Source: Myxococcales bacterium
GTDB lineage: Bacteria > Myxococcota_A > Polyangia > Polyangiales > Polyangiaceae
Assembly (NCBI GenBank): GCA_012514535.1
Contig: JAAZAA010000366.1
Location: 1 to 39,803, forward strand
Direction of reading: 5' to 3'
Length of the DNA stretch: 39,803 nucleotides
The translations under genes and the position numbers were made by a program. Shown one piece after another: positions 7,884 through 12,262 of the stretch. Within the stretch, counting starts at the first letter, position 1, and each line of letters starts with the position of its first letter. A model generated the notes under the pieces. It was given only the letters and a program-made list of their open reading frames with translations. It made no database searches and had not been told where the DNA came from.

Positions 7884-8884
7884 TGGGGGGGCTCCGACCG
7901 CGGCGGCGGCGGTGGGCGCTGGGGGCGGCCCTGTGCGTGGCCGCGTGCGCGGCCGTGCTCAACGTGAGCTGTGGGCGCGCGCCCCTGTTCGTGCGTTTCC
8001 TGTGGGGCACCTTGAACCAACCGGAGACGCGCCCGCCTCGCCATCGGGTCGTCGAGCCGCGGGTCGAGGGCGCGCGCCTGGTCGCCACCTGGGTGGGGCA
8101 TGCGACGGTGCTGCTCCAACTGGACGATCGCTTCGTGCTGACGGATCCGGTCTTCACCTCCACGGTCGGCGTGGTGTCCAGGCGCTACGTGGCGCCCGGC
8201 ATCGCGCCGGAAGACCTGCCGCAGGTGGACGCGGTGGTCGTCTCCCACATGCACTTCGATCACCTGTCCTTGGGGAGCTTGGATCGTATCGAGGATCGGG
8301 TCGCGCACATCGTGCTGCCGGAGGGAGGCCTCGCGTACGTGCCCGGCTCGTCCGTGCCGACGGACGAGCTGGCGCCCTGGGAGTCCTTGGAGCTCGACGG
8401 CCTGCGCATCACCGCCACCCCGGTGGAGCATAACGGCTGGCGCTACGCGGGGGACCGCGCCTGGCGCGCCACGGCCTTCACCGGCTACGTCATCGAGTAC
8501 AACGGCCTCTCCGTCTACTTCGGCGGCGACACGGCGGCGAGCGGCTGGATGTTCTCGGCGACGGGCCGGCGCTTCCCCGATCTCGATCTGGCGCTCCTCC
8601 CCATCGCGCCCATCCACCCGCGCGAGTTCATGTGCCGCACCCACATGGACCCCAAGGAGGCCCTGGACGCCTTCGCGGGCTTGGGCGCCCGGGCCATGAT
8701 CCCCATCCACTTCGACACCTTCTTCAACTCCCTCGACGAAGTGGGGGAGGCGCCGCGGCTGCTGCGCGCGGAGATGAACGAGCGCGGCCTCGGGCCCGAC
8801 CGGGTGATCGTCCTGGAGCACGGGCAGCAGCACGTCCTCGTGCCGGGTGACGCGCGACCCCTTGCAGCCCCCGAGCGGAGGTGA
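7883..8884 (+). CDS. Metallo-beta-lactamase-fold hydrolase, UlaG/NAPE-PLD-like, membrane-anchored
   Basis: 333-aa protein. An Arg-rich start and a hydrophobic segment (WALGAALCVAACAAVLNVSC) suggest a membrane anchor or lipoprotein. The catalytic domain begins with TWVGHATVLLQLDDRFVLTDPVF and contains the binuclear zinc motif HMHFDH (122-127), a later EHNGWRY histidine, FGGDT and MIPIHFDTF. This pattern is that of the MBL-fold group containing NAPE-phospholipase D and L-ascorbate-6-phosphate lactonase. The substrate cannot be read from the sequence; a lipid-like substrate would fit a membrane-bound enzyme. Translation is coupled to the previous gene by TGATG. Confidence 0.83.
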   Translation: MGGLRPRRRRWALGAALCVAACAAVLNVSCGRAPLFVRFLWGTLNQPETRPPRHRVVEPRVEGARLVATWVGHATVLLQLDDRFVLTDPVFTSTVGVVSRRYVAPGIAPEDLPQVDAVVVSHMHFDHLSLGSLDRIEDRVAHIVLPEGGLAYVPGSSVPTDELAPWESLELDGLRITATPVEHNGWRYAGDRAWRATAFTGYVIEYNGLSVYFGGDTAASGWMFSATGRRFPDLDLALLPIAPIHPREFMCRTHMDPKEALDAFAGLGARAMIPIHFDTFFNSLDEVGEAPRLLRAEMNERGLGPDRVIVLEHGQQHVLVPGDARPLAAPERR

Positions 8885-8888
8885 TGCC

Positions 8889-9098
8889 ATGAGCGCCATG
8901 AAGGAACTCATCGGGACGCTCATCGCGAAGGCTGACTTGAACCAGGAACAAGCCACCAAGGTCGCCGAGGTGGTGAAGGGCTTCTTGGCGGACAAGCTCC
9001 CCGCGCCGCTCCAGGGACCGGTCCTGAGCGCGATCTCCGGGGAGTCCGTGGACTCGGTCGCCAATCAGGCCAAGAACGTGCTCGGCAAGCTCTTCTGA
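8889..9098 (+). CDS. Small helical protein (69 aa), unknown function
   Basis: 69-residue soluble protein starting MSAMKELIGTLIAKADLNQEQATKVAEVVKG. It is almost entirely amphipathic helix, with an LPAPLQGP turn in the middle. Similar small proteins with a KLPAPL turn are widespread in bacteria, but I know of no assigned role. AGGTGAT precedes the ATG, and it starts 4 bases after the hydrolase stop, so it is the last gene of the norR-led run. A palindrome at 9113-9124 follows. Confidence 0.75.
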   Translation: MSAMKELIGTLIAKADLNQEQATKVAEVVKGFLADKLPAPLQGPVLSAISGESVDSVANQAKNVLGKLF

Positions 9099-9164: not shown

Positions 9165-10232
9165 TCAGGTCCCGAAGTCGTCCGGGCAGGCGCAGGGCGC
9201 GGAACAGGTCACGTCACCTGCGGGGCGACTGTTTCCGGTCCCGGTCACCGTCGTGGCTGCGTTGCAGGTCACGTTGGTCGGACCTCCGTGGAAGACGTTG
9301 TCGCTGATGTGCGCCGACCCACCCTACTGAAAGAAGATGCTGGTCCCGCCGCTGGCGAACACGTTCCCGACGATCGACAGTTCCGTGCCGGACGCGCGCA
9401 GGGACGCTCCACCGCAGTCCTCGATCTGCGTCCCCTCGATCACCGCGGGGCCGCTGGCCTGGATGCAATACCCGGGCGTCGTCCCTTCGCCGCGTAGCAC
9501 ACAGCGGCGCACCGCCGTGTTGGGCTCCATGCGCACGATGATGTGGGACGTTTCGTACAACGGCTGCCCGCTCAGCACGCCGGGGTCATCGGCGTCGCAC
9601 TCGAGCTCTTGCCCCTCCGAGAGCGCAATGGTCTCCGTCAGAGGGTAAGTCCCCCCGGAGAGGAAGATCTTCCCCGCCGCCCTGGACAACGCGTACTCGA
9701 GGGACCGGAAGGCGCAGGCGCCCGCCCCGCCGCCGTAGTTCGGATCGTCGAAGCCGAGCACGGGGTCGACGTAGTGGTCCGCCGACGCCGAATCGGCTCG
9801 GCACGCCGTCGGCTCGTCGACGACGCAGTCCGCGCCGCTCGGGTGATGGCCCTCGGCGCATACGTCGCAGTCCGCGCCGGCCCATCCGGCCGGGCACATG
9901 TCGCATGCCGCTCCGGTCCAGTCGCCGTCGCAGGAGCAGCCGGTTCCCGTGCGCCCGTCATCGCACGTCCCGTTCACGCAGGCGCAGGGAGCGCAGGACT
10001 CGCCGAAGTGCCCCGGAGCGCACTCGTCGCAGTCTTCTCCGTCGAAGCCCTCGGGACAACTCCCGTCGTCTTCCCCTCCAGCCATGCCTCCGTCGCCGCC
10101 GCTCGCCCCGGCGCTCCCGCCCGTGCCGTCCCCGGCGCTGCCCCCAGTCGCCTCGCCCTTCCCCCCAGGAGAGGACGACGATCAGGCGGACGCGGCGAAG
10201 AGCAGGAGGAAAATGAGGTTCCGTGACATCAT
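9165..10232 (-). pseudogene. Cys-rich, beta-helix lipoprotein gene with two in-frame stop codons
   Basis: A single 356-codon frame from ATG 10232 (or 10229) to TGA 9165, interrupted only by TGA at codon 17 (10182-10184) and TAG at codon 303 (9324-9326). Codons 1-16 give a signal peptide, MMSRNLIFLLLFAASA. The TGA falls exactly where a lipobox Cys is expected and is followed by SSSSPGG and a Gly/Ser linker like those of other lipoproteins in this window. Then come EGF/laminin-like Cys repeats (CPEGFDGEDCDEC to about residue 140) and a right-handed beta-helix-like part. After the TAG the frame continues with the same repeat style (SDNVFHGG echoes GNVFASGG) and ends CSAPCACPDDFGT. No frameshift is seen. 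It is either a young pseudogene, recoded, or carries two sequence errors. ATG 10085 would give a 253-aa form without a signal peptide. Confidence 0.8.
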
Positions 10233-10324
10233 GATGATTCGCACATCATCACCGACCGCTACGAGGGAGGGCAACGGGGCATTCTCCCGACCTCGCCATA
10301 CACTCACGAATGCTCCGGGTGATG

Positions 10325-12013
10325 TCACCTCTTCCGCTTGGGCGTGTACACCCAGCTCGGGCGAACGGGTGTGCCGACCTTGGGGATCAAGGCGCGCCCC
10401 TGGAACTGGAGGGTCTCCGTGCGCCGGTAAGCCCGCCGCAGGGGTCTCATGAACATGTACCAGTCGCTGTCGAGCACGACCCCGGAGAACGCTCGCTGTT
10501 GGAACAGGGGCGTCCAGCGGGCCTCGAGGAGCTCCCGCACGCCGCGAGGGTCCCGATCCGCCTCGAACACGTCGACCATGGCCATGTGATGGGCGAAGGG
10601 GCGTTTCCCGGCGAGCCAGGCGAGGTGGGGGTGGTTCACGACGAGGACGTCACCGGGCAAGCTGCGGATCTTCTCCACCACCATGTCGCCCGCGGCGTAG
10701 TCGTGCGGGCCAGGGACGTGGCGCTCCCACCCCGAGGGAAAGAGGAGCAGGAGCTGCGCGATCGCGAGGAGCCCGGCGGACAGACGCGCCGCCGCGGCGG
10801 GGATGCGCGTGGCGGCGTGCAGGACGACGCCGAACGCGATGGCCAGGGCCGCGTGAGCGGGCATGAGATCGTTGGTGAAGCTCCCCATGTGGAGGCGAGA
10901 CAGGTAGGAGCCCGCCCAGCAGCTCGCGCAGAGGAGCCAAAAGAAGACGTGCCTGCGGAGGCCCAGACGGAGCGGAAAGCCGCACAGGAGAATGACCCCA
11001 GCGGTGGTGGCGAGGGGCAACCGCAGGGGGAGCTCGTTCGTCCAGAAGGAGAGCAGGAGGTACTCGCGTCCCTTCATGCCGTGGGTCGAAGGGAGCTCGA
11101 GCACGTAATAGAAGAACCAGCCGTCTGACTGGATCTGTAGGGCGAGGGCGATCACGGCGAGGCACGCGACGAACACGCCTCCAAACAAGGCCAGCTCCCG
11201 GAGCTCGGCGCCGCCGGGCCACAGCTCCGAGCGCCGGAGAATGGAATACCAAGCCGCTCGCGGCTCCGATCCCTGCGCCCCGGATCCCGCTGCCTCGGTG
11301 CTCCTCGCCTCGGCGCTGGTCGCTCGGCGAGCCGAGCTGGGGAGCAGGAGCGCGCCCCACGCGACGGCGGGCAACAACACGAGCATGGTTTGCTTGGTGA
11401 GCACGGCGAGGGCGAGCAGCACCCCGGCGAGCATCAGAGCCCACGGGCGTCGCGACCTCCGCACGTCCTCTTGCACGAGGGTGAGCGCTCCCAGGCCGAG
11501 GGCGAGCGCCAGGGAGTCGACGCGGGCCAGGTCGAACCAGGTGCCGCTCAGCTCGAAGGTCCCCACGAACACGCCGCTGCTCACGGCGGCGATCCAGGCG
11601 CTTCTGGTGCTCACGAACACCAGGCGGAAAATCAGCAGGAGGACGGCGATGGTGGCCAGCAGACTGAGGAGCCGCAGCGCCGGCAGCCCCGGCCCGGACA
11701 CCTTCGCGACCGCCGCCGCGGCGTAGCTGTAACCGGGGCCGTACAGGAACGGCATGAAGTCCGGGGAGGGCTCGGGGTAGAGGGTCACGCCCTGGAGGAC
11801 GCGGAGCGCGTGCATCAGCATGCCGCCCTCCATCCACTCGAGTCCGTAGGGGAACGTGCGACGCGCGAGGGCGACGCGGAGGAACTCCCAGGTGCACCAG
11901 GCCGCGAGCAGGGCCGCCACGCCCCAGGCCGCCGTCGTGATCCAGACCAGAGCGGGTGTGGCTTCCCAGCGATGGAGCCGCCGTCGCAGATCGGCGAATC
12001 GAAATGATTTCAT
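10325..12013 (-). CDS. Polytopic membrane glycosyltransferase-like protein (GT-C type)
   Basis: 562-aa integral membrane protein with about 10-12 hydrophobic helices from residue 22 on. The first periplasmic loop contains LEWMEGGMLMHALRV (acidic residues 59 and 62) followed by FLYGPGYSY. This arrangement is common in GT-C glycosyltransferases that use lipid-linked sugars, such as the ArnT/PMT-like and DUF2029 groups. A soluble C-terminal part (VVEKIRSLPGDVLVVNHPHLAWLAGKRP) resembles the periplasmic domain found in many such proteins. The ATG at 12013 is preferred over the upstream frame to 12082, which is Arg-rich. The acceptor is unknown. No polysaccharide cluster surrounds it. Confidence 0.7.
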   Translation of the reverse strand: MKSFRFADLRRRLHRWEATPALVWITTAAWGVAALLAAWCTWEFLRVALARRTFPYGLEWMEGGMLMHALRVLQGVTLYPEPSPDFMPFLYGPGYSYAAAAVAKVSGPGLPALRLLSLLATIAVLLLIFRLVFVSTRSAWIAAVSSGVFVGTFELSGTWFDLARVDSLALALGLGALTLVQEDVRRSRRPWALMLAGVLLALAVLTKQTMLVLLPAVAWGALLLPSSARRATSAEARSTEAAGSGAQGSEPRAAWYSILRRSELWPGGAELRELALFGGVFVACLAVIALALQIQSDGWFFYYVLELPSTHGMKGREYLLLSFWTNELPLRLPLATTAGVILLCGFPLRLGLRRHVFFWLLCASCWAGSYLSRLHMGSFTNDLMPAHAALAIAFGVVLHAATRIPAAAARLSAGLLAIAQLLLLFPSGWERHVPGPHDYAAGDMVVEKIRSLPGDVLVVNHPHLAWLAGKRPFAHHMAMVDVFEADRDPRGVRELLEARWTPLFQQRAFSGVVLDSDWYMFMRPLRRAYRRTETLQFQGRALIPKVGTPVRPSWVYTPKRKR

Positions 12014-12262
12014 GGGGGCGCGCCCCTCGCGGGGGCCAAGCAAGCGGTGGGCGCTCAGCGGTCGTCGCCAGCCGCGGCGCACCCGACGAGTCGAGGGAAG
12101 CCAAGGGAACGGAGCAGCACCGAAAAGTAGGGGTCGGTGGACGATTGACGACAGTCCAAAACATCTTCATGTCCGCGCTCCGACGGAGTCAAGGCGACCT
12201 CCGCGGATCGGTGCGCTCCGCTGGTGACCGGCCCGTGAGTCGGATCCCTCTCCGTCCATCGC

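Follow-up and report, generated by a model that had tools for sequence, protein, structure and literature searches.

Overall organization of the disrupted gene

The gene lies on the minus strand of a 39,803-nucleotide stretch of DNA (the window, meaning the whole stretch that was analysed) from the draft genome of a myxobacterium-like bacterium, 5.77 Mb in 442 contigs, which is 98.76% complete and 2.24% contaminated by the tool's figures. Translation of the frame 10232-9165 gives 356 triplets that end in a TGA codon (9165-9167) and are open except for two internal stops, a TGA at codon 17 (10182-10184) and a TAG at codon 303 (9324-9326). There is no frameshift and, the two stops aside, the frame is clean, as a sequence-only reading of this DNA had described it. 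That reading began the frame at ATG 10232, which is indeed in frame, but translation more probably starts at GTG 10244, slightly upstream, where an SD-like GGTGAT stands at a fitting distance. A start at GTG 10244 would give a signal peptide of 20 residues. The features are:

9165..10244, minus strand: disrupted lipoprotein gene, from GTG 10244 or ATG 10232 to TGA 9165-9167 (frame, GC3, homologues)
10185..10244, minus strand: predicted signal peptide VRIIMMSRNLIFLLLFAASA (hydropathy, SD match to GTG 10244, signal peptides of homologues)
10182..10184, minus strand: in-frame TGA, lipobox Cys in homologues (translation, homologues)
10062..10181, minus strand: Gly/Ser-rich linker (sequence)
9819..10061, minus strand: Cys-rich EGF-like repeats (Pfam EGF_laminin, E 8e-5, over cut-off)
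9327..9818, minus strand: predicted right-handed beta-helix domain before the TAG (homologues, DUF1565/Beta_helix in the family, fold)
9324..9326, minus strand: in-frame TAG, in the turn preceding the last predicted beta-helix strands (translation, homologues, model)
9168..9323, minus strand: remaining 52 codons, last coil and Cys-rich C-terminus (homology to intact relatives)

The coding signal extends across both stops. GC3 is 0.875 before the TGA, 0.875 from the TGA to ATG 10085, 0.87 across the core and 0.83 past the TAG; in the same frame outside the gene it is 0.57 upstream and 0.69 downstream. The stretch preceding the TGA, NLIFLLLFAASA, falls in the top 0.17% of the contig's 12-residue windows for hydropathy.

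The gene is flanked by a small 83-residue protein without a Pfam match (8847-9098, plus strand) and by a PMT_2-like glycosyltransferase (10325-12082, minus strand), and a scan of nine neighbouring genes gave no match to a lipoprotein family. Gly/Ser linkers similar to that of the window gene occur elsewhere in the same genome. One is the tail of a short predicted lipoprotein, L002 (G000:C426, 1397-1648; MRSHRLPFALGALGVAVAVASC...), which is Gly/Ser-rich and matches the window gene's linker at 77% DNA identity over 70 bases, a likeness that is probably one of low complexity.

Intact homologues and distribution of the family

Of 108 genomes of the bacterial family, four others carry a gene clearly homologous to the beta-helix part (34-38% identity), and none of the four, all from Myxococcota MAGs, has an internal stop. 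At the 35% identity of the available homologues dN/dS is not meaningful. A profile search of the 184 genomes of the order returned the same four strong matches and eight weak, partial ones, so that strong family members are found in 5 of 184 genomes, the window gene counted. Neither of the two congeners has a strong match. When the genome contigs were scanned with the single protein as query there was no match, and the profile scan recovered the four homologues. No closely related copy, intact or broken, was found in the collections searched, nor does the same genome hold an intact paralogue that could serve as source or backup, the DNA matches there being to Gly-rich linkers only.

All four homologues have a signal peptide, then a lipobox Cys (..LGGC, ..AAGC, ..PLGC and ..LVAC) and then a spacer, as expected of signal peptidase II substrates. 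The window copy retains the signal peptide, but its Cys codon is TGA. This agrees with the earlier placement of the TGA at the lipobox Cys, although the equivalence is one of position after the signal peptide; the TGA does not fall exactly in the Cys column of the multiple alignment because the spacers are of unequal length. At the other end, the beta-helix of the homologues runs through the TAG column, where all four have sense codons, to a terminus rich in Cys. Past the TAG, the window gene's 52 codons keep the N-x-F, Cys and G-x-G-N pattern and the final Cys, and against a profile built from the homologues' C-termini alone this stretch scores 15.2 bits, which 0 of 5000 shuffles reach. The sequence-only reading was thus right that these codons keep the bias and the Cys/beta-helix pattern. 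It had also allowed that homologues might span 10085 to 9327 only; instead they are longer at both ends. The homologues show that both outer parts, before the TGA and after the TAG, belong to the gene.

Between these ends the family is less uniform. In the homologues (L064-L067) differing Cys-rich or Gly-rich spacers precede the same beta-helix, whereas in the window copy EGF-like repeats replace the relatives' other Cys-rich region. Relatives seem to have swapped this spacer region among themselves. The homologues' loci have no flanking gene in common with that of the window gene, which suggests that the gene moves or is lost independently of its neighbours. In the congeners, the glycosyltransferase-like neighbour gave distant matches only, and no empty site could be read.

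Predicted fold

The last domain of the family matches DUF1565 (PF07602) and the right-handed beta-helix family Beta_helix (PF13229). DUF1565 is over cut-off in L064 and is matched by four of the five family members at E <= 0.05, and Beta_helix is matched by all five at the same threshold; with the window core by itself the Beta_helix match is weak (E 0.06). The domain of L064, an intact homologue, was modelled from just five sequences (mean pLDDT 82.5, pTM 0.86); the model contains beta structure only, its strands arranged as in a right-handed beta-helix. Profile matches and predicted fold together liken the family to DUF1565/beta-helix proteins, though its PDB neighbours are only pectate-lyase-like in a general way, with modest scores (best E 1.7e-3, TM about 0.57). 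The TAG column corresponds to about residue 165 of the 219 in the model, just after strand 160-164. Truncation there would, on this model, remove the final strands (171-188) together with the Cys-rich end.

Decoding of the two stops

Recoding, which the sequence-only reading had offered as one option, is not supported, as every test available disfavours it. Neither a tRNA-Sec nor SelB is found over cut-off in the genome, and the eight best tRNA-Sec matches read as tRNA-Ser, -Cys, -Arg, -Leu and -Asp. The RNA downstream of the TGA can be drawn as a hairpin, but it folds no better than shuffles (z-score -0.98) and no Rfam family is found near the TGA, leaving a SECIS element unsupported. As in bacterial selenoproteins with Cys homologues, the TGA stands where the homologues have Cys. 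Unlike them, it lies in a genome without Sec machinery over cut-off, and the gene carries an extra stop, the TAG, which selenocysteine would leave unexplained. Lipid attachment, moreover, is known on Cys only. We rejected selenocysteine on the tRNA-Sec, SelB, hairpin and Rfam results, and consider selenocysteine at the lipobox together with a separate event at the TAG scarcely credible.

A suppressor tRNA or a change of code was rejected as well. Release factor RF2 is over cut-off at 492 bits, accompanied by a second, RF1-like match, and 0 of 87 kinase-domain matches in the same genome contain an internal stop. No stop-reading anticodon occurs among the 35 tRNAs found, a set that is incomplete and could have missed a suppressor. 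It lacks tRNAs for Trp, Tyr, Thr, Asn and Ile (gat) although the genome is 98.76% complete, and these were probably lost in assembly gaps.

Origin of the two stops

The arrangement at this locus, with homologous coding sequence on either side of premature stops and intact relatives, is as expected of a nonsense pseudogene. We consider it probable that two nonsense substitutions have recently silenced a dispensable lipoprotein gene here, and that they are either fixed or peculiar to the sequenced strain. Supporting this are the four intact homologues, the rarity of the gene in the order and the standard decoding of the genome. The sporadic occurrence in the order suggests that the gene is probably dispensable, and coding bias and homology preserved in all segments, with no frameshift, suggest that the mutations are recent. 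The ancestral product would have been an exported lipoprotein consisting of a signal peptide, a lipid-anchored Cys, a Gly/Ser spacer, EGF-like repeats and a right-handed beta-helix, the latter presumably held at the cell surface or in the periplasm. From the fold, it may have bound or cut polysaccharide. At the lipobox, one substitution would have changed the Cys codon to TGA, and translation would now stop after about 16-20 residues; a second, within the last third of the beta-helix, would have created the TAG. Full-length protein is not expected. The order and recency of the mutations, as well as the loss of function, are what we infer from these comparisons.

Counting against recent silencing is the presence of two stops without a frameshift or other visible decay. 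The sequence-only reading expected frameshifts in a decaying gene, and their absence is indeed somewhat unusual. Under a simple spectrum in which transitions and GC-to-AT changes count double, a stop arises from 2.8% of substitutions in the frame; at assumed substitution:indel ratios of 5, 10 and 20, a pair of lesions would consist of two nonsense changes with probability 0.02, 0.06 and 0.15. With a probability of about 2-15% under so rough a model, and two lesions only, the missing frameshifts are a weak argument, not decisive against decay. The gene resembles the nonsense pseudogenes and short-lived in-frame stops described by Belinky et al. 2021 (PMC7918605) in that relatives have sense codons and there is no other decay, but differs in having two stops and no close relatives for dating.

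The main rival to recent silencing is an assembly, consensus or strain-mixture artefact, such that one or both stops are absent from living cells or present in a minority strain only. A 442-contig draft with 2.24% contamination and a frame that is otherwise perfect would be in keeping with this. However, the absence of internal stops from all 87 kinase-domain matches indicates a low general rate of substitution errors, and two independent errors in one gene, both making stops, would be an unusual coincidence; we regard an artefact as unlikely, if still the most plausible of the alternatives. Error was one of the three options of the sequence-only reading, and recent mutation, another of them, now fits best. 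Improbable by comparison is a functional gene in which low-rate readthrough yields a little full-length lipoprotein. A literature survey has argued that some bacterial in-frame stops remain under purifying selection (PMC7918605), but here two stops in series would have to be read, RF2 and RF1-like matches are present, the 35 tRNAs found include no suppressor anticodon, and none of the four homologues shares the stops. It is more doubtful again that the shorter ORF 10085-9324 is an intact cytosolic protein whose outer parts are chance. Its 253 residues are uninterrupted and GGAGG precedes ATG 10085, but only 1 base away, and the homologues are all exported and extend further on both sides; on this spacing and these longer ends we rejected it as the true gene. 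Disulphide-rich domains are, in addition, not expected to fold in the cytosol. Very unlikely, finally, is that selection keeps the stops and that lipid anchoring and surface display are toggled in the population when the TGA is, on rare occasions, read through or reverted.

Functional stops would amount to a new way of controlling the display of surface lipoproteins, though nothing found points there. As a recently silenced gene, the locus matters for annotation and for little else: at 10085-9324 automatic callers would predict a cytosolic, truncated protein that was never real as such.
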